From positions 2,880,001 to 2,944,000 of the forward strand of contig NC_011365.1 of assembly GCF_000021325.1 (NCBI RefSeq): DNA of 64,000 bases. The letters are read 5' to 3'. A program made the position numbers and the translations under genes. Below, piece after piece: positions 7,485-48,674 of this stretch. Positions within the stretch are counted from its first letter, which is position 1; each line of letters starts with the position of its first letter. Under the pieces are notes generated by a model. That model ran no database searches. It was not told where the DNA came from and saw nothing but the letters and a program-made list of their open reading frames with translations. This DNA is from Gluconacetobacter diazotrophicus PA1 5. Lineage in GTDB: Bacteria > Pseudomonadota > Alphaproteobacteria > Acetobacterales > Acetobacteraceae.

Positions 7485-8470
7485 TGACGGGCCCGCTGGC
7501 CGCCCTGCTGCGGGACCTGCGCGACGGTGGTGCACTGTCGGCCAAGCGGGACATCGCCGCCACGGTTGCGGCGCTGGGGGGTGCGGCGCTGGGATATGAT
7601 GGCGGGGACGCCATCCGGCTGGGCGACGATTGCGCGGCCATCCCGGACGGGGACGGGTACCTGCTGTTGGCCGGCGAGGGGTTCCAGGACGGGTTCGTCG
7701 GCGCCATGCCGTGGTTCGCGGGGTATTGCGGCGTCATGGTGAATGTCAGCGACATCGCCGCGATGGGGGGGCGCCCCGTGGCCGTGGTGGATGCGCTGTG
7801 GAGCGAGGGGGCGGAGGCCGCCGCCCCCATCCTGCGGGGCCTGCGGGACGGCGCGCGCACCTATGGCGTGCCGGTCGTCGGCGGCCATACCAGCATGGGC
7901 AGCCTCCATAACTCCCTGTCGGTGGCGATCCTGGGCCGGGCGCGGCGCCTGCTGACCAGCTTCGACGCCCGGCCGGGCGAGGCCGTCATCGCGGCCATCG
8001 ACCTGCGGGGGCGCTGGCACGACCCGCATCCGTTCTGGGACGCCAGTTCCGCGCTGTGCGGGACGGCCAGCGCCGCGCGGCTGCGCGCCGACCTCGACCT
8101 GCTGCCCGCCATCGCGGAGGAGGGGCTGAGCCGGGCGGCCAAGGATATCAGCATGGCGGGCCTGCTGGGGACCGCCCTGATGCTGGCCGAATGCTCCGGC
8201 ATCGGGATGACGGTCACGCTGGACGATGTTCCCCGCCCCGAGGGCGCGCCCCTGGAACGCTGGTTGCGGGCCTTTCCCAGCTATGGCTTCCTGCTGACGG
8301 CGCGGCCCGGGGATGCGGACGCCATCCTGGCGCGCTTCCGGGGGCGGGGCATCGCGGCCGCCGTCATCGGATGCTGCGACGGCACGCGGCGGCTGGATGT
8401 CGTTTCGGGCGGCGACCGCGAAACGTTCTGGGACCTGGCGCAGGCGCCGCTGATGGGATGCGGGCCATGA
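7484..8470 (+). CDS. nitF: AIR synthase-related protein, Sll0787 family
   Basis: This 328-residue protein belongs to the PurM/ThiL/HypE superfamily of ATP-dependent enzymes. N-terminal ATP-binding residues are visible in IRLGDDCAAIPDGDGYLL, followed by MVNVSDIAAMGG and GHTSMGS, the usual AIRS_N and AIRS_C landmarks. It is a fixed member of Nit1C clusters with unknown substrate, perhaps phosphorylating or amidating a small molecule made by the neighbouring enzymes. ATG at 7484 shares its A with the preceding stop; GTG at 7481 is an alternative. The stop overlaps the glycosyltransferase start by ATGA. Confidence 0.86.
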   Translation: MTGPLAALLRDLRDGGALSAKRDIAATVAALGGAALGYDGGDAIRLGDDCAAIPDGDGYLLLAGEGFQDGFVGAMPWFAGYCGVMVNVSDIAAMGGRPVAVVDALWSEGAEAAAPILRGLRDGARTYGVPVVGGHTSMGSLHNSLSVAILGRARRLLTSFDARPGEAVIAAIDLRGRWHDPHPFWDASSALCGTASAARLRADLDLLPAIAEEGLSRAAKDISMAGLLGTALMLAECSGIGMTVTLDDVPRPEGAPLERWLRAFPSYGFLLTARPGDADAILARFRGRGIAAAVIGCCDGTRRLDVVSGGDRETFWDLAQAPLMGCGP

Positions 8471-38810: not shown

Positions 38811-39304
38811 GGGATCAGGGCACGCGAACCAAATAGCGTCGTGACGAGGTGCCCGGCGGATGCGTGAATATCGCGGTGAAGGCGGCGGGATGTAAGACTG
38901 GCAGCTTGCGCCCTCATGTCGGGCATACGCGCCTGTGAATAGCTTTCCGCATAGCGGACATAAGCAGCACAATCTCTCGCGGCCGAGTTGGGGCCGTTTT
39001 CTGCCTGTCAGGTTTCAGGCACGACAAATGGGAAGCCGACCTTCGCGCAACAACTCGCTGATGCCGGCAAGCCCCCTCGGACGAATCAGCAGGATGGTCG
39101 CGTTAGTTTACGTCGACATTACGGCCAATCGTGTCGCTGGTTACACGCCCGAGGGTGGTACGACACTCTACGATATAGCGCCACGATAGCGGTTGGTTCG
39201 AGGGGCCCGCTTCAGCGTTGATCGACGCCGATCCGCAGCCAAGCTGAGACTTGTACAATTCGATCGTCCTGGACATTTGCTGCAATACGTGCGATAGCGC
39301 TGCC
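38811..39304. other. Island boundary region without clear gene
   Basis: Backbone composition ends here and AT-richer sequence begins. Short frames with no ribosome sites or family similarity were not called. The region may contain remnants of the integration event and the promoter of the methyltransferase. Confidence 0.4.
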
Positions 39305-40612
39305 ATGATACCATCATGCATCGACCTATTTGCCGGTTGTGGCGGGCTCTCGCTCGGTCTTGGAGCCGCCGGTTTCTCGACCCTGTTCGCGATCGAGGCT
39401 CATGCTGATGCATTCGATACCTACCGAGCCAACTTACTTGACAGTGGCAGGAACCGCCATAGTTGGCCGGCATGGCTCGACAAGCGAGCGTGGCAGGCTC
39501 AGGATGTACTTGTCCATCATGAAACGGAACTTGCCGAGTTACGCGGGAAGGTCGACTTGGTCGCCGGCGGACCACCATGCCAAGGCTTCAGCATGAATGG
39601 CCTCCGGCGGCCTGATGATCCACGCAGCAAAATGGTGGACGTCTATCTCCATTACGTCGAAATCGTCCGTCCACGCCTAATTTTGTTGGAGAATGTGGTT
39701 GGCTTCCGCTCGATGAAGCATCGCACAGGCGGAACTTACAGCGATTATACCAAGCGTAGGCTGGAAGCCTTTGGCTACGACACCTGGATTGAAATCTTAC
39801 GGGCTGCGGACTGGGGCGTTCCGCAGCGCAGGCCGAGGTTTGTACTCATCGCTGCACCAAAGGGCACACTACCCGGCATTGATCCAATGCAACGCTTGCG
39901 CGTCGCCAGGAAAGCATTCCTTGTCGCACGAGGGCTTGGGCCGGATCATACGAGCGCCAGTGCCGCGATCTCAGACCTTGAGGAAAGCGATATGGAACCC
40001 GGACTTGACAGCGAATGGGGCCATCTCGGTTTCCGGGCGCTGAAGCGCTCGCGGGAAGCAGCGACTCCGTACCAGCGACTGATGAGGGTTGACAGCCTTA
40101 ATCAGCCCGGCGACCTCAGGTTGCCTAGGCACAGCACCGCCTCAGTCGGGCGGATGCGGGACATATTGGACAATTGCGAACGCGGGGTTTGTCTGAGGCC
40201 AGTGGACCGGGAACGCCTAGGCATCAAGAAACGCTCAACCACGCCGCTCGCCCCGGACGGGCCCGCTCCTACCATTAGCACGCTACCGGATGACTTCGTG
40301 CACTATTCCAAGCCACGGGCAATGACGGTCCGGGAGCACGCGCGCTTGCAATCCTTCCCAGATTGGTTCTCGTTCAAGGGACCCTACACAACCGGCGGCA
40401 GCCGCCGGCGGGATGCATGCCCGAGGTTCACTCAGGTCGGGAACGCGGTGCCACCGCTTTTGGCCGAGGCACTTGGGGAGATGCTTATGGGCCTCTTAGC
40501 CGTCCAAAAGCGTGACGAGTCGCCTCATCTCGCGGAAAGCCTCAGTATGCTCGGCGAATACCCGACGGATGTCCGCAAAATCGTTGACGGTGATTTCGCC
40601 GCTACCTTGTAG
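39305..40612 (+). CDS. C5-cytosine DNA methyltransferase
   Basis: This is a 435-residue Dcm-type enzyme. Motif I is IDLFAGCGGLSLG (residue 6 on), motif IV is GGPPCQGFS with catalytic C92, motif VI is LLENVVGF, motif VIII is PQRRPRF, and motif X is TQVGNAVPPLLAEALG. The variable target-recognition region lies at about 215-335. It methylates cytosine in an unknown target. ATG at 39305 is used; the frame opens at a TTG at 39251. The C-terminal 40 residues extend past motif X and overlap the converging receiver gene by 117 bp. Codon usage is less GC-rich than the backbone, fitting horizontal transfer with Vsr and the GHKL pair. Confidence 0.9.
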   Translation: MIPSCIDLFAGCGGLSLGLGAAGFSTLFAIEAHADAFDTYRANLLDSGRNRHSWPAWLDKRAWQAQDVLVHHETELAELRGKVDLVAGGPPCQGFSMNGLRRPDDPRSKMVDVYLHYVEIVRPRLILLENVVGFRSMKHRTGGTYSDYTKRRLEAFGYDTWIEILRAADWGVPQRRPRFVLIAAPKGTLPGIDPMQRLRVARKAFLVARGLGPDHTSASAAISDLEESDMEPGLDSEWGHLGFRALKRSREAATPYQRLMRVDSLNQPGDLRLPRHSTASVGRMRDILDNCERGVCLRPVDRERLGIKKRSTTPLAPDGPAPTISTLPDDFVHYSKPRAMTVREHARLQSFPDWFSFKGPYTTGGSRRRDACPRFTQVGNAVPPLLAEALGEMLMGLLAVQKRDESPHLAESLSMLGEYPTDVRKIVDGDFAATL

Positions 40613-41265
40613 TATCCATCCCGCATCTCCCTCGACCTCCACTACATGGCCGAGAAGGTTACGCTTGCGGAGGACCTTCTGGTCATATTGAGCACTGGAC
40701 TTGCGTAACTCGCGCAACCGGTCTGCATCCGCGTCGTTCAGGCCAAAAGTAGCAGGGCTAGCAGCGGCAACCTGTGTCAGCCGGCGAAAATGCTTAAACA
40801 GCTTCATGCTATCGACTGCCCGGGTTTCAATGCGAGCAAGCAGGTCTTTAGCTTTCGACTCCTCATATGCCTGCTTGGCTTCGTCCAAGAACTTCAGGAC
40901 GTCACTATCAAGGCTTTCGATCTTGCCTGCGCAATTCGGATCCCGGGCGCACATCGACAACATTGCAACCTTCATGAGATCATCGCATTCGGCCACTACC
41001 CGCATGGCGAGCCCCCTCATGCCGGATAGCCTGTCAAGTGATCGTGCCGTTTGGTCTATCAACTCGCCAGCACGCTCTGTAAAGCGCCCGCGTGAACAGC
41101 AGTACACGCCTTCGACCGCCTTGCTGGCGATCAAACTGCGAAGCTCCTGCTCCTCGGCGCTGCCCGAATAGAAAAGAATGGTCGTCGAAGGAAATAGCTC
41201 GCGAATGACCTTGCCCCCTGAAATGCCCTCGCATTGAAGTAAGGTCTGTCCACTGGAGACAGACG

Positions 41266-41532
41266 ATGAAGAAAGCGCGATTTACGCAGGACCAGATTAT
41301 CGGGGTCCTGAAAGAGCATCAGGCGGGCGCTACGGCTGCGGATCTGTGCCGCAAGCACGGGATCAGTGACGCGACCTTCTACACCTGGCGGTCGAAATAC
41401 GGCGGGATGGAGGTGTCGGAAGCGCGGCGCCTCAAGGCTCTTGAAGAAGAGAACGCGAAGCTGAAGCGGCTTCTGGCGGAGAGCGTGATGGACGTCTCGA
41501 CGCTGAAGGAACTACTGGCAAAAAACTCGTGA
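41266..41532 (+). CDS. IS3-family OrfA
   Basis: This is an 88-residue DNA-binding protein with an HTH in [24 protein letters not shown] and a leucine-rich helix [20 protein letters not shown]. Near its end lies a correctly phased A-AAA-AAC slippery heptamer (41520-41526). A -1 shift there would fuse OrfA to OrfB and make the active transposase. The stop overlaps the OrfB GTG. Confidence 0.9.
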
Positions 41533-42383
41533 CGCCCGGTTTGCGGCGGGAAGCCGTGACCTGGGCGATCCGGGAGAAAGAGTATTCGCAGCGACGGGCC
41601 TGCCGGCTGATCGGCATGGACCCGAAGACCTGGCGCTATGCGTCACGCCGCCCGGATGATGCCGCAGCGCGCGGGCGGCTGCGCGAACTGGCTGGGGAGC
41701 GACGGCGATTTGGCTACCGGCGACTGCATATCCTGCTCGGCCGGGAAGGAATGACGATGAACCACAAGAAGCTGTTCCGGCTGTATCGCGAAGAGGGGCT
41801 GTCGGTCCGCAAGCGTGGCGGCCGGAAACGGGCGCTGGGCACGCGCTCGCCGATGATGCTGCCCGACGGGCCGAACCAGCGCTGGAGCCTGGATTTCGTC
41901 TCGGATGCATTGAACAACGGACGGCGCTTCCGGGTGCTGACGGTGGTCGACGACTACACGCGCGAATGTCTGGCGCTGGTGGCGGACACCTCGTTATCAG
42001 GCGAACGCCTCGGTCGTGAACTCGACCGGATCGGCGAGCATCGCGGCTGGCCGCTGATGATCGTTAGCGACAATGGCACCGAGATGACATCGAACGCGAT
42101 CCTGGCCTGGCAGCAGAAGCGATCGGTGCTGTGGCACTATATCGCACCGGGCAAGCCGCAGCAGAACGGGTTCGTCGAGAGCTTCAACGGCCGGTTCCGC
42201 GACGAATGCCTCAATGAGCATCTGTTCCGTAACATCGCCCACGCTCGGACGGTCATCGAGGACTGGCGGGCCGACTACAACGCCGTCAGGCCTCACACCA
42301 GCCTCAATGGCATGACGCCAGAGGCTTTCGCTCAACACGCCACCAAGGCATACAACAATACACAGACCCTAACTCAAAACTGA
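41529..42383 (+). CDS. IS3-family OrfB transposase
   Basis: This 284-residue integrase-fold protein carries the DDE triad: [19 protein letters not shown] and [17 protein letters not shown]_21 and rve domains are in the normal order. As its own product it begins GTG at 41529, but it is most probably made as an OrfAB fusion by -1 frameshifting. It is intact and potentially active. Confidence 0.9.
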
Positions 42384-42637
42384 GGGCACGTTCGGGGCAG
42401 GGTCACGAACCCTCGGCGCTAGCTCATCACCTTTCTCGTCGCGCAAGCGGTAGTCCAGCAAGATGAGGTCATACATATGATAGAGTTGGTGCTTACGCGA
42501 GAGGTCATCGATCCCGGTCCCATTTGGAATTGTTTCGATGCGCGCTAGAAAGCCCGCATCTTGCACCCTGCGCTTGAGTGCTTGCTCCTCCTCTGGGCTA
42601 AACGAATCCTCTATCCATAGGATTCCTAGGTCGAGAT

Positions 42638-44953
42638 TCATTGCCGTTCCCCCGGGACAACGATGTCGAAGTCAGCTCGCGTTCCATCTCCTGCAAGCTC
42701 GATGGTGCCGCCCATTCCCTCGACTATCTGGCGAATGCTGTACAAGCCTAGTCCAGTGCCGTTGGCAGAACCGGTATAGCCCCGCTCGAAAATCTTGGAC
42801 GGGTCGACCTTGCGCCTGTCGATACCCAGGCCATCGTCGATGACCCTGATAAGCACGGAGTCCTGCCCCTTGCGCGTGGCCTTGAACTCGATCTTGCTCG
42901 CTTTCGCCTTGCGTGCGTTATCCAGCAGGTTGTCGACGAGAACTGCTACGTCCACGGGGGAGAATTCCCGTTCCAGCGCCAGATTGGCGGCATCAAAGGT
43001 AGCGGCTGGCATGCCAGGAATACCAACAAGGCGAACCTCGAAATACTCGGTGAGAAATTGGAGCAAGTCGCCGTGCACCTTGTCGGTTTCCAAATCGACA
43101 CGGATGTTCGGTGCAAATGACAGAACGGTGCGCAAGCGATCCCCGGATAAGCTTGCGCCGGCGATCGAGACCGATGCACGACGGGCGGACTGGCGGATCG
43201 TGGCGAGCAGATCCTCGACGTCCCCGAGGTCATCGATTTCTTTTGGCATCACGGCCGCAGCCAGAATGTTCCGCACCTCATGCGCCATGTTCTCGATTGC
43301 CGCGCGCACATGCCCGAGGTGTATCGTGGCTTGGTGCATGAGCAACTGGATGCGCTCGACATCGACATCCTGGCTGCTCCCGAGGAACGCTGCCTGCTTC
43401 TCTAGCGCCGCAATCCGCGCATCGGCGGTGGCCCGCTCCGCCATCGCGCGCAGGGCGGCTTGGCGAGCTTCGTCGCGCGACGCCCGCAATTCAGCGATCC
43501 GCCTCCTCGCTTCCTCTACCTGGCCAAGCAAGGAGACATCGCTGCGGCTCTCCGCAACCGCCGACATCGCCTTGAGCGCATCGTCAGTGATCTTGTCGGG
43601 ATCGTCGGCCACGCGGACGAGTTCTGTATCGTAGTACAGGATTTCGACGTCCTTCGATCGCGCAAGCGAACCAACTATACCAAGGACGCGCTCGCGTGCC
43701 CGGTCAGTTTCAAGGCCTTCGGATGTATCACGGTCTTGATCAGGCCTGTCCTGCCAGTTCACGCCGACCACATAACGCTCAAGCCGGAAGATCATATGAC
43801 GGCGGATCGCTTCATACAGCGCGCGACTCCGCGCATCTTCGATCAGGCCCGCGTCCCGGCTCGACACTTCTCGGAACATCTTGGGCGGCGCTGTTACATC
43901 AACCCGCCCGATGATGTCGCGCGTACCAAGGTAGCGGGATTGGCCTTGCTGCTTCCTGCGGTTCAATCCGAGGGTGTCGTCAAACTCATCGCCGATTGGC
44001 GAGACACGGAACCCATTTAGGAAAAGGAAAACGCTCCCGAACTCCACGGGCCGCACGCTCATGCGAGACGTAAAAGTATGCTTAGCTGACCTGTTGAGGA
44101 AGTATACCTGCCCTTCGACGCGGCAGTCAGTAAGTTCGTCATAGGGAGAAGGCTCACGGATTGCATATATTTTCCGACCACGATCGAAAAGCGTCGTGTC
44201 AACACGGCCGTCCGCGACGGTTACCTCGATCCGGCTTGTCTTCTCCCTGAGTATGTCAGCAATGTTATTCCCTACCGGACCATCGACGCCCTCCATCCTC
44301 TCCTCGGACCCATCTACCAGCCAGGTCGAGACGGCGACATGACTGGTCGTACCGAATGGGTCGATGAGCTTAGCAAGATCCCTGCGCAACCGGCGGATGG
44401 CGTTTTCGTTCCACTCCTGCCGAGTGCCCTTAATGACGAGCATCGTTCCATGCTGGGGTGGAGGCTCGGCATTTGCGATCCTGGGAAACGATGGCGCCGT
44501 CCCAAGTTCGACTTCGACTTCCTGAAACTCCTCAGTGCTATCCTGTTCGAAGCGCGTCCAGTCGATTTCAAGCCTTGAGATCCAGTTGCCGCCTTCGGTG
44601 CGGCTATAGAGTTCCAAGCCATCCCCGAGCGTGTCGCATGCGAAGCGGCCAATCCCCTTGCTCCCCGCGAACGCGATCTTGTCACGATAGTTATCTGAAG
44701 CTGAAAGTGCCTTCTCGGAGTAGGCGACGAATAGCCACTTGTCGCGAATATCCGTCGACGTCATCCCCTTGCCATCGTCGACGATGGTGATGGAAGCCTC
44801 ACCCGGATCAAACTCGATGTCGACCCTCGTCGCCCCGGCATCGAATGAGTTCTTCACCAACTCGAAAATCGCCACGAACTCGTTCGTGACCAGATCGCGC
44901 CCGATAATGTCCTTAAGATGCGAGCTGACTCGGAAGGATTCTCGTGTTGTCAT
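42638..44953 (-). CDS. Dual-GHKL ATPase/histidine-kinase-like protein
   Basis: This 771-residue protein has two ATPase modules. The N-terminal one is Hsp90/MutL/MORC-like: FELVKNSFDAGAT (N box), IVDDGKGM (G1), GSKGIGRFACD (G2). A beta-rich middle and a coiled coil (about 450-520, RRRIAELRASRDEARQAAL) follow. The C-terminal one is histidine-kinase-like: an H-box-like AHEVRNIL, VDNLLDNARKAKASK, VIDDGLGI and GLGLYSIRQIVEGMGG. No membrane segment is present. The receiver gene overlaps its stop. With the flanking methyltransferase and Vsr genes, this resembles restriction-modification-linked GHKL systems, but the kinase/receiver half is unusual. Confidence 0.85.
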   Translation of the reverse strand: MTTRESFRVSSHLKDIIGRDLVTNEFVAIFELVKNSFDAGATRVDIEFDPGEASITIVDDGKGMTSTDIRDKWLFVAYSEKALSASDNYRDKIAFAGSKGIGRFACDTLGDGLELYSRTEGGNWISRLEIDWTRFEQDSTEEFQEVEVELGTAPSFPRIANAEPPPQHGTMLVIKGTRQEWNENAIRRLRRDLAKLIDPFGTTSHVAVSTWLVDGSEERMEGVDGPVGNNIADILREKTSRIEVTVADGRVDTTLFDRGRKIYAIREPSPYDELTDCRVEGQVYFLNRSAKHTFTSRMSVRPVEFGSVFLFLNGFRVSPIGDEFDDTLGLNRRKQQGQSRYLGTRDIIGRVDVTAPPKMFREVSSRDAGLIEDARSRALYEAIRRHMIFRLERYVVGVNWQDRPDQDRDTSEGLETDRARERVLGIVGSLARSKDVEILYYDTELVRVADDPDKITDDALKAMSAVAESRSDVSLLGQVEEARRRIAELRASRDEARQAALRAMAERATADARIAALEKQAAFLGSSQDVDVERIQLLMHQATIHLGHVRAAIENMAHEVRNILAAAVMPKEIDDLGDVEDLLATIRQSARRASVSIAGASLSGDRLRTVLSFAPNIRVDLETDKVHGDLLQFLTEYFEVRLVGIPGMPAATFDAANLALEREFSPVDVAVLVDNLLDNARKAKASKIEFKATRKGQDSVLIRVIDDGLGIDRRKVDPSKIFERGYTGSANGTGLGLYSIRQIVEGMGGTIELAGDGTRADFDIVVPGERQ

Positions 44954-45138
44954 GCTGACAACTTAACGTAGTTTGATCCAGCCACAAAACAATGAACCGC
45001 CACGGTTACCCCACCCAGTTGGCCTGATCCGGCTTAAGCCCGTAATGTGGATCGTAAGTTGCCCCGAACAGCCAGCATGGGAAAACTGACTTTCCCTACC
45101 CATCTGTCTCTTTTGCACGGTCGCACGCAGGAGGCAAG

Positions 45139-45600
45139 TTGGCAGACTTCCTTGAGCCTCTGGAACGATCACGCCGCATGGGGCGGATCAGGTCACAGGA
45201 CACGAAGCCAGAGATCGCGCTCCGACGGGCATTGCACCGGCTCGGGTTACGCTTCCGCCTAGGTGGCGCAGGATTGCCCGGGCGCCCTGATATTGTACTA
45301 CCACGCCATCGTGCCGCGGTATTCGTTCACGGTTGCTTCTGGCACCGCCATCCCGGTTGCAAGGTTGCATCGACGCCAAAGTCGAATACTGACTTTTGGG
45401 TTGCAAGATTCGACCGAAATGTTGCCCGCGATGGGAAGGTCATGCGGGAGCTCCAGGAGTTAGGCTGGAACGTTTTTGTAATCTGGGAGTGCGAGCTTTC
45501 CGCTAAGTCGCGCTTGAGCCCAACGGCCACCCAGTTGGCGGCGCAAATACGCGAGAGAACTATCACCAGCATAGCCGGGGTTCTGCCACAGACTGGATGA
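45139..45600 (+). CDS. vsr: Vsr very-short-patch repair endonuclease
   Basis: This 153-residue nicking enzyme acts on T:G mismatches arising by deamination of 5-methylcytosine. The family landmarks are present: RMGRIRSQDTKPEIALRRAL, GLPGRPDIVLPRHRAAVFVH with the catalytic Asp, GCFWHRHPGC zinc-site residues, and NTDFWVARFDRNVARD. The start is TTG at 45139 with AGGAGG; ATG at 45178 would delete part of the first helix. It is divergent from the GHKL gene and functionally paired with the methyltransferase on the same strand 4.5 kb away. Confidence 0.9.
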   Translation: MADFLEPLERSRRMGRIRSQDTKPEIALRRALHRLGLRFRLGGAGLPGRPDIVLPRHRAAVFVHGCFWHRHPGCKVASTPKSNTDFWVARFDRNVARDGKVMRELQELGWNVFVIWECELSAKSRLSPTATQLAAQIRERTITSIAGVLPQTG

Positions 45601-45973
45601 ATGCCAGCATCGACCGCACTCGCCTCCCGCGCGCGCTACCAGACGCCGATCATATAGATGAAGGGTCACAACGAGCGCATCACGATGATCACAAAGTGCT
45701 CTCGCAGGGCGGGGTACACAACGGCGCGACTCCAGCCGGCTGGACGGCTTTTTCCGACGTCAGCGGTTTCGACGATCCCGACGCGGGAACAGAGGAAACT
45801 GGGAATTAAACCGGGGGGCTGCGCGATCCCGGCGAACCGCGCAATAGGTGCGAACAGAACCGTCCGGCAGGAGAACCGGAGCTCAGTACGATAGCCCGCA
45901 TCAAGCCATGCCTAGCATTTTTGATCTTGGGGGCACCACGCCTTGCGCATGTCCGCTTTCGGGGAGCGTCTAG
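45601..45973. other. Intergenic, no gene seen
   Basis: Short frames downstream of vsr show no family features. The next component of the cluster may have been lost where the IS1182-type element inserted at 45974. The CTAG at 45970-45973 is the left target duplication. Confidence 0.4.
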
Positions 45974-47423
45974 CAGGCTGTCGGGTTGGGGTACCTGGCT
46001 CTGGCGATCTGCGGTAAGCTTTCAGGATGAGCAGCTTCATTCCGTTTGATCGATCGCAGCCGTATCTTCTGCCGCCGGATCTGAAGTCATGGCTGCCGTC
46101 GGACGATGTGGCGCATTTCATCGTGGCGGCGGTAGAGCGGGTGCCGTTGAGGGCATTTTCCGTTCCTGTGCGGACTGGCGGCAAGGCGCAGTATCATCCG
46201 CGCCTGATGCTGGCGCTGCTGATTTACGCCTATGCGAACGGCGTGTTCTCATCGCGTCGGATCGAACGGGCGACATATCGTGATATCGGTATGCGCTTTG
46301 TGGCGGCGAACCTGCATCCTGACCATGACACGATCGCGACGTTCCGGCGCGGCAACCGCACGGCGATCGAGGCAGCGTTCATGCATGTACTCCTGCTGGC
46401 ACGCGAGACGGGACTGGTGCGGCTTGGCACGGTGTCGATCGACGGCACGAAGATCGATGCCAATGCCTCGAAATACCGTTCCATTCGTTATGATCGCGCG
46501 AAAGAGCTGCGCGAGAAACTGGCCACCGATATCTCCACCCTGATGGAACGGGCAGAGGCGGCGGATACAACCGATGTGGATCATCAGGCGTTGCCGGAGG
46601 AACTGGCCCGGCGGGAGGCTCTGAAGGCAAAGCTGGATGAAGCCTGTGCGCGACTGGAGGCGGAAGCCCGCGAGCAGGCCAAGACCGCCCGACCAGAATA
46701 TGAGCGCAAGAAGGCAGCTTTTGATGCGAAGCGGGGACGGCGCGGTCGGCCGCCGAAAGAACCGGACGATGAACCGCCACCAGACCGGCAGATCAACCTG
46801 ACCGATCCGGACAGCAAGCTGATGCGCCGCTCCGACGCGCATGAATACCGGCAAGCCTACAATGCCCAGGCCGTGGTTTGTGCCGAGGGCAGCCAGTTGA
46901 TCTTGGAAAATGGCGTCGTTGCGACGACGGCGGACGCGCCCAGCTTCGCCGCCACCATCCTGGGTATGGAGGAGAGGATCGGCCTGCCACGAACCGTCCT
47001 CGCCGACACGGGTTTCGCCAGCGGCAAAGCCGTCGAAACGTTGCAGGCCAGCGGCGTGGACCCGCTGGTCGCCATCGGACGCCCTGTGAATCGGCGCCCT
47101 TATGACTTCCGGCCAGAACCGCCACCCAGGGAGCCGCGCCGGATCACCGAGCCCTGGCGCCTGGAAATGAAGGCCAGGCTGCAACAGAACCCGGCAAAAG
47201 CCCTTTACGCCTTACGCAAGCAGACCGTCGAACCGGTCTTCGGTATCATCAAGAGCGCCATGGGCTTCACCCGTTTCCATCTCCGTGGCCTCCCCAACGT
47301 CGCAACAGAATGGACGCTCGTCGCCCTCGCATATAATTGCCGTAGGATCACGCGACTGACGGCCGCATAAACGCCGTCGTCGCCGTCACTCATCACTACG
47401 GCAGCGCCCAATCCGACAGCCTG
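45974..47423 (+). mobile_element. IS1182-family insertion sequence
   Basis: This is a 1450-bp element with inverted ends CAGGCTGTCGGGTTGGG and CCCAATCCGACAGCCTG (one mismatch). It is flanked by the palindromic tetranucleotide CTAG at 45970-45973 and 47424-47427, the usual target of this family. One intact transposase gene is carried on the plus strand. Confidence 0.85.
46027..47370 (+). CDS. IS1182-family transposase
   Basis: This is a 447-residue DDE transposase. The N-terminal DUF772-like region is PFDRSQPYLLPPDLKSWLP with ERATYRDIGMRFVAAN. Catalytic Asp is in VSIDGTKIDANASKYR, a second in LADTGFASGKAVE, and Glu in VEPVFGIIKSAMGF. A charged insertion (about 150-260) separates the first two, as usual in this family. 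It is intact. Confidence 0.9.
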   Translation: MSSFIPFDRSQPYLLPPDLKSWLPSDDVAHFIVAAVERVPLRAFSVPVRTGGKAQYHPRLMLALLIYAYANGVFSSRRIERATYRDIGMRFVAANLHPDHDTIATFRRGNRTAIEAAFMHVLLLARETGLVRLGTVSIDGTKIDANASKYRSIRYDRAKELREKLATDISTLMERAEAADTTDVDHQALPEELARREALKAKLDEACARLEAEAREQAKTARPEYERKKAAFDAKRGRRGRPPKEPDDEPPPDRQINLTDPDSKLMRRSDAHEYRQAYNAQAVVCAEGSQLILENGVVATTADAPSFAATILGMEERIGLPRTVLADTGFASGKAVETLQASGVDPLVAIGRPVNRRPYDFRPEPPPREPRRITEPWRLEMKARLQQNPAKALYALRKQTVEPVFGIIKSAMGFTRFHLRGLPNVATEWTLVALAYNCRRITRLTAA

Positions 47424-47600
47424 CTAGACAATCTTAGACGACCGGCATTGGGACGCACAGCGACTGTCACACGCAGCTGACTGAACGGCAGGATACATAG
47501 TTTGGGCGCTCCAAAGCGGACAGGCCGAATCCCCCCCCTTTCGGACCTACGTCCCGCCAAGTCGGACTTACGCGCTGTCCAAGCTGACGTCCGCTTCTGA

Positions 47601-48530
47601 GAGCCCGATCCGAAAGTTTTTGAACAATACCAGCCTGTTGTGATTCATCCGTCTTTGCGAAGAGATGGAGTGAATGGTGACATGGACTGGTATTGCCCGA
47701 CGTGAACATAGCCGGGAAGGGTTGCGATATCCATCGGATATGACGGACGGGGAGTGGGCTTTGATCATGCCATTTGTACCCCCGGCGAAACGGGGCGGTC
47801 GCCCCCGCACTACGGATATGCGCGAGGTGGTCAACGCGATGCTCTACATAGCCTCGGCCGGGTGTGCGTGGCGCCTGCTGCCGAAATGCTTTCCGCCGGT
47901 CTCGACCGTCAGGCGCTATTTTTACGCCTGGCGTGGTGCCGGAGTGTTCGAAGTCATGAATACGGTGCTGGTCATGAGCCTGCGCGAGATCGAGGGGCGT
48001 GAAGCCTCTCCGAGCGCGGGCGTGATTGACAGCCAGTCGGTGAAAACCACGGAAAGTGGCGGGCTTTCGGGCTATGACGCGGGGAAGAAGGTCAAGGGCC
48101 GCAAGCGCCATATTGTGACGGATACCTGCGGCTTCCTGATCTTTCTCCTCGTTCATGCCGCCGACATCCAGGACCGTGATGGGGCTGTTGATGTCCTGGC
48201 AGCGATACGCAGGCGCTTTCCCTGGCTGCGCCACATCTTCGCTGATGGCGGCTATGCTGGCGACAAATTGCGATCCGCGCTCGCCTCCATGGGAAAATGG
48301 ACCCTTGAAATCATCAGGCGGTCCGATACGGCGAAGGGCTTTCAGATCCTGCCGCGCCGCTGGGTGGTTGAACGGACATTCGCATGGCTGGGACGGTGCA
48401 GGCGGCTCGCCAAAGACTGGGAACAATCCATTGCTTCCTCAACCGCATGGACATTGATCGCCTCGATCCGAATGCTCACACGACGGACAGCAAGGCATTG
48501 TCACGGTTGAAGAACTTTCGGATCGGGCTC
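47601..48530 (+). mobile_element. IS5-family, IS1031-like insertion sequence
   Basis: This is a 930-bp element with ends GAGCCCGATCCGAAAGTT and, inverted, AACTTTCGGATCGGGCTC. The 3-bp direct repeat TGA flanks it (47598-47600, 48531-48533), fitting the TNA target of the IS1031 group, which is common in acetic acid bacteria. It encodes one transposase. Confidence 0.88.
47674..48510 (+). CDS. IS5-family (IS1031 group) transposase
   Basis: This is a 278-residue DDE transposase: AGVIDSQSVKTTESGG gives the first Asp, IFADGGYAGDKL the second, and RRWVVERTFAWLGRCRRLAKDWE the Glu with the Y-R-K(E) signature. A single uninterrupted frame is seen, as in IS1031-group members. It is probably functional. 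Confidence 0.9.
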   Translation: MVTWTGIARREHSREGLRYPSDMTDGEWALIMPFVPPAKRGGRPRTTDMREVVNAMLYIASAGCAWRLLPKCFPPVSTVRRYFYAWRGAGVFEVMNTVLVMSLREIEGREASPSAGVIDSQSVKTTESGGLSGYDAGKKVKGRKRHIVTDTCGFLIFLLVHAADIQDRDGAVDVLAAIRRRFPWLRHIFADGGYAGDKLRSALASMGKWTLEIIRRSDTAKGFQILPRRWVVERTFAWLGRCRRLAKDWEQSIASSTAWTLIASIRMLTRRTARHCHG

Positions 48531-48674
48531 TGAGGCGTGGCCGAGCCCTCAAATTCGCACACCTGGCGCCACGCCATTGCGATGGTGAATATAAATGGGA
48601 ATGGAACTGGCGTTGAGATCCCGGTCGCGCCAGTCGGGGGCCTGCTTCCTGATCGTATCGGCCGGCGGAGACGG

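Follow-up and report, generated by a model that had tools for sequence, protein, structure and literature searches.

A C5-methyltransferase-linked kinase and receiver cassette with a predicted HEPN-type effector domain, and its IS3-interrupted copy in Gluconacetobacter diazotrophicus

In the 64 000-nt stretch of the Gluconacetobacter diazotrophicus PA1 5 genome analysed here (the window), genes for a C5-cytosine DNA methyltransferase and a Vsr mismatch endonuclease stand together with genes for a two-ATPase kinase and a receiver protein. What would be the effector of such a locus? The initial annotation described the four genes as a group of foreign composition, and the base composition agrees, with a GC content of 0.595 at positions 39201–48600 against 0.681 in the rest of the window. 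The methyltransferase (39305..40612, plus strand; 435 aa) matches PF00145 (E = 2.5e-48) and TIGR00675, and Vsr (45139..45600, plus strand), an accessory gene, matches PF03852 (E = 1.9e-27) and TIGR00632 (E = 9.3e-41); both had been named correctly. Past Vsr there are IS1182 and IS5 transposase genes.

The kinase gene (42638..44953, minus strand) encodes a protein of 771 aa with an N-terminal MutL/MORC-type GHKL ATPase (HATPase_c_3, PF13589, residues 26–139), an H-box in the middle and a C-terminal histidine-kinase ATPase (HATPase_c, PF02518, residues 669–764), confirming the two-ATPase layout first proposed; PF13589 and PF02518 are matched by all 56 kinase homologues. The H-box had been placed at AHEVRN. 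The histidine of this motif (H558; kinase residues are numbered as in the window protein) was rejected as phosphoacceptor, being His in only 11 of 83 aligned kinases, whereas all 83 have His at the position of H540, in LLMHQ. His540 is the probable phosphoacceptor (codon 43334..43336, minus strand), and in distant plasmid relatives the same column is the H-box histidine in 10 of 11. Residues N675, N679, G708, G732, G734 and G736 of the kinase ATPase are present in 83/83 proteins and D706 in 81/83. With an invariant H-box histidine and intact N and G boxes of HATPase_c, the protein has the features of a histidine kinase, although the residue beside H540 makes the pair HQ, not HE (Q in 58 of 83). 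Searches of phage records with the kinase gave just two matches, both partial and N-terminal.

The receiver start is coupled to the kinase by ATGA (42638–42641), as had been noted, but the receiver gene is not intact. An IS3-family insertion sequence of 1.2 kb (41206..42405, plus strand) separates its 5′ part from its 3′ part. The 5′ part (42406..42641, minus strand) has 78 whole codons, including that of the phosphoacceptor Asp63 (42453–42455, minus strand), and PF00072 matches the ORF fragment 42369–42641 with E = 0.0011. The 3′ part (40496..41205, minus strand; 236 codons) was delimited by reading its frame separately from the 5′ part and from intact homologues; it carries the end of the receiver domain and a HEPN-like domain, in which RNLLGH (40646..40663, minus strand) corresponds to the HEPN R-x4-H motif. 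The element contains orfA (41266–41532) and orfB (41529–42383), the latter matching an NCBIfam IS3 transposase (E = 6.6e-70), and has near-identical inverted ends with a 4-bp repeat in the flanks; the ends were set by comparing six copies. Ten copies in the genome, that in the receiver gene counted, are identical across 1151 bp, and the insertion is recent. Because the element cuts the receiver gene in two, the window copy of the cassette is probably dead; it would be a methyltransferase and kinase remnant whose effector was lost through the split. For this local copy only, it is highly probable that the island is decaying and holds nothing functional, save perhaps for a solitary methyltransferase and Vsr that are still active. 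Both the recent insertion and the transposase genes past Vsr point in that direction, whereas a TTG-started frame from 41134, with its start after the element, might still give the HEPN part. Decay here is compatible with the function that we favour for the cassette and has no bearing on the family elsewhere.

Is the grouping itself accidental? The 83 nearest loci that we examined span many phyla. In 79 of them phmmer (E < 1e-40) places a C5-methyltransferase no more than 2.5 kb from the kinase, and 362 kb of sequence from these loci, lying more than 6 kb away, contain none; the linkage exceeds chance. A cognate DNA methyltransferase, a trait of type II restriction-modification systems, is thus present in the window (PF00145) and in 79/83 relatives. 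Vsr lies within 4.5 kb of the kinase in 20 of 83 loci, and in 15 of the 55 loci whose flanks reach 4.5 kb or more on each side. The recurrent linkage on which the initial annotation had made its grouping depend was therefore observed for the methyltransferase and only partly for Vsr. A fourth obligatory gene was ruled out: when 698 neighbours were clustered, the leading group among the 22 largest clusters, Vsr, came from only 15 loci, followed by methyltransferase-like proteins (11 loci), integrases (7 loci) and others (at most 6 loci).

These neighbourhoods also bear on whether we are looking at an ordinary type II restriction-modification and repair cluster, with a Vsr-centred or other nuclease as effector and the kinase and receiver as accessories. 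The kinase N-terminus does resemble the BbrUII/HgiDII restriction enzymes (NCBIfam NF050001, residues 16–203, E = 3.7e-25), two PADLOC REase_II models match 39/56 and 31/56 kinases, and nuclease genes do occur near the cassettes, Vsr as counted above and an HNH_2-type family within 6.5 kb of 5/83. The likeness to BbrUII/HgiDII is that of a related N-terminal GHKL ATPase; the match stops at residue 203 with a score of 88.5 against a cut-off of 550, and the C-terminus holds a kinase ATPase. Vsr is absent within 4.5 kb in 40 of the 55 loci with full flanks, and the only other nuclease group recognised among the 22 largest neighbour clusters, for which some representatives were scanned, is the HNH_2 family (5 loci); rare or divergent restriction enzymes may be present beyond these. 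We regard an ordinary cluster as very unlikely.

The gene that does accompany the kinase is its partner. In the 79 loci with a recognised partner, the start of this gene falls in the interval from 50 bp upstream to 15 bp downstream of the kinase stop, and kinase and receiver distances are correlated (r = 0.87, 72 loci). Full-length receivers make up 76 of the 83 partners. Each of the 76 has a helical domain at its C-terminal end, and in it an R-x4-H that never varies and stands where HEPN ribonucleases have theirs. Asp63, Arg259 and His264 (R259 and H264 are numbered as in the receiver of locus L014) are invariant in 76/76; N260 is found in 73/76, as is the strict pattern RNx[LMF][AG]H, which is absent from neighbouring proteins of 250–400 aa (0/164). 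The available text of PMC3710099 defines the HEPN motif as R-x4-6-H, in which R is as a rule followed by a polar residue (N, D, H). The domain around it is largely helical, and the motif closes helix-3, ahead of the loop that leads into helix-4. R259 and H264 agree with this definition in 76/76 receivers. In the AlphaFold model of the intact L014 receiver (pLDDT 92), helix 251–264 ends with the motif and is followed by a beta-hairpin (266–277) and the last helix (284–312), which is the site described for HEPN.

Profile comparisons by hhalign against three known HEPN families gave E = 2.4e-4, 2.3e-3 and 2.1e-3 (probabilities 12–44%), with nine control profiles all at 0.13 or above; the three families were picked after weak matches to them, and so this test was not blind. 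Single-sequence HEPN matches of the receivers in Pfam are weak. The families most often matched by 58 C-terminal pieces were Abi_2 (4), HEPN_MAE_28990 (3) and HEPN_Swt1 (3), while HEPN_RiboL-PSP, matched by 2/58 (best 3e-4), took fourth place in a tie with Ferritin and Spore_III_AB. PADLOC models run on 58 receivers gave PDC-M60B four times (best 3.9e-4) and single weak matches that included Csm6 (8.7e-4) and Csx1 (0.021). When PDB chains were searched with a sequence profile of the C-terminal domain, no HEPN chain came up, the ten listed at E ≤ 10 being unrelated in name, and the VIA-align fold comparison of the receiver model was filled by receiver-domain chains and so covers the receiver domain only. 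One query with the receiver-HEPN protein found no match on plasmids at E 1e-5. Since the invariant R-x4-H, the profile comparisons and the AlphaFold model agree, the receiver protein is probably a phosphorylation-gated HEPN RNase, i.e. the effector. The suggestion that the kinase and receiver pair might be the effector or its sensor is supported in this respect, the receiver carrying the predicted HEPN-type domain.

Would the switch be phosphotransfer? The partner has a receiver fold with the phosphoacceptor Asp, as a two-component protein should, and its PF00072 matches range from scores just under the cut-off of 30.2 bits (29.0 for L011, 26.6 for L014) or well under it (16.5 for L012) to E = 3.6e-11 for the best of 58. 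One acidic receiver residue is Asn in 14/76 proteins, and after strand 5 the usual Lys is replaced by Arg in 69/76. This replacement, together with the prevalence of HQ over HE in the kinase, would suit an RNase that works without phosphotransfer, with a nucleotide or the kinase itself as the ligand of the receiver and the state of the GHKL ATPase alone acting as the gate; receivers of conflict systems have been proposed to be kinase-free nucleotide-responsive switches (available text of PMC8195603 and PMC11229360). The invariance of His540, Asp63 and the kinase ATPase residues, and the tight spacing of kinase stop and partner start, speak for a phosphorelay instead, and we consider gating without phosphate transfer unlikely.

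The arrangement of the genes invites another reading. In the window the methyltransferase and receiver genes are convergent, their 3′ ends overlapping by 117 bp, and in 36 of 37 loci of convergent arrangement the ends overlap by 4–165 bp, so that the two mRNAs would be complementary. The pair could accordingly serve regulation, as a two-component system by which the methyltransferase or genes nearby are tuned, with HEPN cutting or binding specific mRNAs (e.g. that of the convergent methyltransferase) and no defensive killing; indeed, the related HEF_HK pair first drew attention in an expression study (PMC8011034, available text), as genes that become active on potato tubers. In 37 of the 79 linked loci, however, the methyltransferase is upstream and in the same direction. 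The effector slot is also filled differently in distant relatives whose kinases share this architecture, by HNH or metallo-beta-lactamase-fold proteins, and such swaps fit effectors better than mRNA regulators. We would give pure regulation a low probability, similar to that of gating without phosphate.

Caspase-like proteins are further candidates for the effector slot. Three of the 83 nearest loci (L075, L082 and L093) pair the kinase with a shorter protein that lacks the HEPN motif; in the second protein of these loci a His-Gly and a Cys are common to 3/3 aligned, and by eye to L149. Pfam matched Peptidase_C25 in one of the four candidates (E = 0.12), support so slight that we treat the caspase-like reading as a lead only.

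The combination of genes had been thought unfamiliar. A related GHKL kinase and receiver pair, HEF_HK/Response_reg_2, was in fact published with C5-methyltransferases and Vsr by Bellieny-Rabelo et al. in 2021, the available text naming no effector and reporting no other known domain in Response_reg_2 receivers (PMC8011034); the receiver-HEPN pairing described here was not found in the open-licence literature searched. HEF_HK kinases likewise have an N-terminal HATPase_c_3, a C-terminal HATPase_c and an adjoining receiver gene. They are homologous to the present kinases (N-terminal ATPase profile, iE 1.4e-16 to 2e-25, 7/7), with a methyltransferase match at 7/7 loci and Vsr at 3/7, and C5-methyltransferase linkage is a trait that the two share (79/83 loci here). 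They differ in length and H-box, measuring 990–1078 aa and carrying HEF or HEL at 7 loci, while the present kinases are ∼770 aa and mostly HQ; Response_reg_2 receivers lie in open frames of 547–817 aa (10 loci), and the present ones are ∼310 aa. PF19191 matched none of the four kinases tabulated in full (the window kinase at E ≤ 1, three others at E ≤ 0.1), and it is not among the families listed (25 of 45) for 56 kinases, so at most 1/56 matches. PF19192 matched 6/58 receivers at E ≤ 0.1 (best 1.7e-4), the listed scores being 18.6 bits for L014 and 12.5 for the window fragment against 27. No R[NDH]x3H was found in the C-terminal part of 6 of 10 Response_reg_2 proteins, those with the frame read. 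Direct membership in HEF_HK/Response_reg_2 was rejected on these Pfam models, and on kinase homology we keep the present kinases as a putative sister family of HEF_HK.

The best-described effector of another family, Detocs, is a PNP that destroys ATP, and we know of no methyltransferase linkage for it. Detocs, compared here by description only, is a three-gene antiphage family that joins two-component logic to an effector (PMC11249213, available text). The HATPase_c_3 N-terminal ATPase, a trait of paraMORC/MORC-type GHKL proteins, is matched (PF13589) by 56/56 kinases, and MORC/paraMORC systems also place a MutL-like GHKL ATPase beside methylases and Vsr (Iyer et al. 2008; PMC2292703, available text); those systems have helicases and nucleases, while the present ATPase is fused to a histidine-kinase module and comes with a receiver. 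A HEPN RNase at a restriction-modification locus is known from PrrC, RloC and Ymh-paraMORC, including a HEPN-paraMORC ATPase fusion (Anantharaman et al. 2013; PMC3710099). Here, by contrast, the fusion partner of HEPN is a receiver domain, in a protein of its own with a putative phosphorelay switch, a combination absent from the available text of that paper. The open-licence literature searched, preprints aside, yielded no receiver-HEPN protein that has a GHKL kinase as its partner; the legend of Figure 6F in PMC13092281 (available text) lists HATPase and REC with other domains for predicted systems, whose identity with the present family is uncertain. Linkage of a related kinase and receiver pair to C5-methyltransferases has been known since 2021, and what appears to be new is the predicted receiver-HEPN effector paired with a GHKL kinase.

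On balance, we favour a role of the cassette in defence or addiction, along the lines of restriction-modification but with a phosphorelay plus an RNase substituting for the restriction enzyme. The C5-methyltransferase would mark host DNA, and Vsr, if present, would repair 5mC-deamination mismatches. The MutL/MORC-type GHKL ATPase of the kinase may sense foreign or unmethylated DNA, a link to activation suggested by gene linkage. The C-terminal ATPase would then phosphorylate His540, from which the phosphate would pass to receiver Asp63, as the invariant residues and the gene pairing suggest. Phosphorylation may release or dimerise the C-terminal HEPN domain, which would cut RNA and lead to a growth stop or cell death. 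From these features we infer an antiviral self-or-die role.

More tentatively, at a little under even chances, the cassette may exemplify a class of ‘two-component restriction-modification’ systems made of a GHKL kinase, a receiver-like partner, a C5 or N6 methyltransferase and a swappable effector (HEPN RNase, HNH DNase, metallo-beta-lactamase-fold hydrolase or caspase-like protease). In this class the reading of self or non-self DNA would become a phosphate signal that fires the effector, replacing direct DNA cleavage.

If the proposal is true, it supplies the effector so far lacking for a widespread and functionally unexplained kinase, receiver and methyltransferase cassette, in which methylation status would be read via a phosphorelay and a ribonuclease and not by a restriction cut. 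It would predict three catalytic residues, toxicity when the methyltransferase is lost and swap-able effectors, and it would offer a route to asking what MORC-like GHKL ATPases sense on DNA.

In Gluconacetobacter diazotrophicus the cassette comprises a C5-methyltransferase gene (39305-40612, + strand), a receiver gene (42641 down to 40496, − strand), a gene for a kinase of 771 aa (44953 down to 42638, − strand) and a Vsr gene (45139-45600, + strand). All of them lie inside a low-GC stretch (0.595 across 39201-48600 versus 0.681 in the remaining window), which bears out the foreign composition noted in the initial annotation, and the ATGA coupling described there was found as well, the kinase stop overlapping the receiver start. 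The island is an insertion-sequence landing place, with IS1182-family and IS5-family transposase genes past Vsr (46027-48510).

The receiver, initially read as one gene, proved to be interrupted by an IS3-family element (41206-42405; transposase E=6.6e-70), and the ORF first assigned to it runs into transposon sequence. The ends of the element were set by comparison of six copies, and its flanks contain a 4-bp repeat. On one side are 78 whole receiver codons, including that of the phosphoacceptor Asp63; on the other are 236 codons for the receiver-domain end and the HEPN-like C-terminal domain. Intact receiver homologues occur in other genomes. Judged from its sequence, the module is broken in the source genome and, since the receiver is split in two, this copy is probably inactive. 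The 3.9-Mb genome has ten copies of the element, the window's included, identical across 1151 compared bases (partial matches occur besides); the insertion is therefore probably recent, and the element appears to have been recently active. A second naturally shortened receiver was seen in another relative (L013:17037-17492), with a stop just inside the start of the C-terminal domain and with methyltransferase and kinase open; this shortening fits loss of a costly effector. Elsewhere in the G. diazotrophicus genome, ∼43 kb ahead of the window, a 141-aa open frame has a HEPN_RiboL-PSP match (E=1.7e-9; G000:C1:2837127-2837438).

A class-level search of 385 genomes gave four homologues at E<=1e-30 besides the window's own. 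When one genome per species was scanned using an alignment of five sequences, 329 relatives emerged; the best 80 were used, so the counts describe the nearest relatives rather than all. The 83 loci examined (these 80 plus the four class-level homologues, less L053, the same locus as L012) span, by record-title names, Alpha-, Beta- and Gammaproteobacteria, Bacteroidota, Planctomycetota, Acidobacteria, Verrucomicrobia/Lentisphaerae, Bacillota, Campylobacterota, Patescibacteria, Calditrichaceae, a methanogenic archaeon and others.

Recurrent linkage of the kinase/receiver pair to methyltransferase and Vsr genes had been proposed as the test of the grouping. A C5-methyltransferase (phmmer E<1e-40) lies <=2.5 kb from the kinase in 79 of the 83 nearest loci, with none in 362 kb of far flank (>6 kb away); 37 are downstream in opposite orientation, 37 upstream in the same direction, three upstream opposite and two downstream same. 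As for the exceptions, the methyltransferase is at 3.8 kb in L046; in L078 the available sequence reaches just 163 bp beyond the kinase on its upstream side, and two weaker methyltransferase matches lie downstream; L016 and L039 have Vsr and no methyltransferase at E<1e-40 in reach. Linkage to Vsr holds in part: Vsr occurs <=4.5 kb away in 20/83 loci (15/55 where both flanks reach >=4.5 kb) compared with two in all of the far flank (362 kb), but most loci have none within 4.5 kb. A partner was recognised <=300 bp from the kinase end in 79 loci, its start falling from 50 bp before to 15 bp after that end, with a 4-bp ATGA-type overlap in 52. Correlations of sequence distance (72 loci) were r=0.87 for kinase-receiver, 0.61 for kinase-methyltransferase and 0.65 for receiver-methyltransferase. 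Among 37 convergent loci, 36 have methyltransferase and receiver genes whose coding tails overlap; the shared stretch is 4-165 bp long and measures 117 bp in the window (40496-40612), so that transcripts of the two genes would be complementary.

Residues 26-139 of the window kinase match a MutL/MORC-type ATPase (HATPase_c_3) and residues 669-764 a histidine-kinase ATPase (HATPase_c); both models are matched by 56/56 kinases scanned. Likeness to the BbrUII/HgiDII restriction enzymes is confined to residues 1-200 and lies under the cut-off (E=3.7e-25; 88.5 bits versus 550). In an alignment of 83 kinases (82 relatives and the window's, L010 and L053 excluded) the proposed H-box AHEVRN did not hold up, since H558 is His in only 11/83 whereas His540 is invariant. 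E31, N35, D59, G61 and G63 of the N-terminal ATPase are kept in 82/83; in the C-terminal ATPase N675, N679, G708, G732, G734 and G736 are present in 83/83 and D706 in 81.

According to passages of PMC8011034, HEF_HK kinases (PF19191) adjoin Response_reg_2 receivers (PF19192), with C5-methyltransferases and Vsr, and are related to paraMORCs; the proteins in which Response_reg_2 domains were seen are said there to carry no other known domain. None of four kinases with complete match tables hit PF19191, and the model does not appear in the 25 families listed, of 45, for the 56 kinases, so at most one of these could match. PF19192 scored above cut-off in 10/398 genomes; the open frames concerned are 547-817 aa long. 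All seven loci fetched from these ten have a homologue of the window family's kinase, 990-1078 aa in length, and a C5-methyltransferase match, and three have Vsr. The two groups thus share a homologous kinase, methyltransferase linkage and, at some loci, Vsr, but the window family has smaller proteins with a recognisable effector; R[NDH]x3H is absent from the C-terminal part of the six Response_reg_2 proteins read (of ten). By these sequence comparisons the window family is a sister family of HEF_HK/Response_reg_2. By eye, a C-terminal segment around CD[SLTM], a candidate output domain, is common to six Response_reg_2 proteins (L094, L096, L097, L099, L100, L102) and to the Enterobacter and Devosia plasmid partners L155 and L158.

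Eleven plasmid kinases were hand-picked from 91 records matching the window kinase, and their neighbours were read by record annotation and Pfam. Against the kinase profile they score E=1.7e-41 to 2.1e-94, over stretches covering both ATPase regions. The H540 column is His in 10/11, in H-boxes such as AHELK, SHELR and VHEIK; the eleventh (Enterobacter) has another residue there and a VLHEGR segment close by. Deinococcus gobiensis and Bacteroides finegoldii have a short partner (weak receiver match) with HNH and an Eco57I-type or N6 methyltransferase; Burkholderia aenigmatica and Hymenobacter volaticus have a short partner, a metallo-beta-lactamase-fold protein and an adenine-type methyltransferase. 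On the Pseudanabaena plasmid, with no annotated methyltransferase within 5 kb, a short partner and an annotated metallo-hydrolase follow the kinase; an IS982 transposase gene interrupts this hydrolase gene (L156:7818-9771), which makes it another effector-position gene disrupted by an insertion sequence, and the longer hydrolase piece has no Pfam match. In Stenotrophomonas rhizophila (L149) a C5-methyltransferase is accompanied by a short receiver-like protein and, behind it, a small protein (7770-8450) with a caspase-like pattern: a His-Gly and, further on, a Cys, both set in hydrophobic strands. Proteins with this pattern, likewise small and encoded behind a short receiver-like partner, were seen at L075:12070-12708, L082:4802-5440 and L093:11953-12684; all four are caspase-like protease candidates with almost no Pfam support. 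No output domain was recognised in the partners of the remaining five kinases (Halomicrobium, Enterobacter, Clavibacter, Devosia, Hymenobacter sp.).

An integrase family occurs in seven loci, and TnsE/TnsD genes (L011:14213-17351) and a TnsA gene (L149:9196-10035) adjoin two cassettes that are probable cargo of Tn7-like transposons. Such mobility fits a defence module, of which swappable effectors behind one sensor are also expected.

The best-supported reading of the cassette, built on the observed linkage, conserved residues and domain similarity, is a methyltransferase-linked phosphorelay firing a predicted RNase: the kinase would sense DNA, phosphotransfer between kinase and receiver would follow, and the fired RNase would cleave RNA, with an outcome that may be defensive. 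As a bolder extension, the family may represent a two-component form of restriction-modification with swappable effectors.
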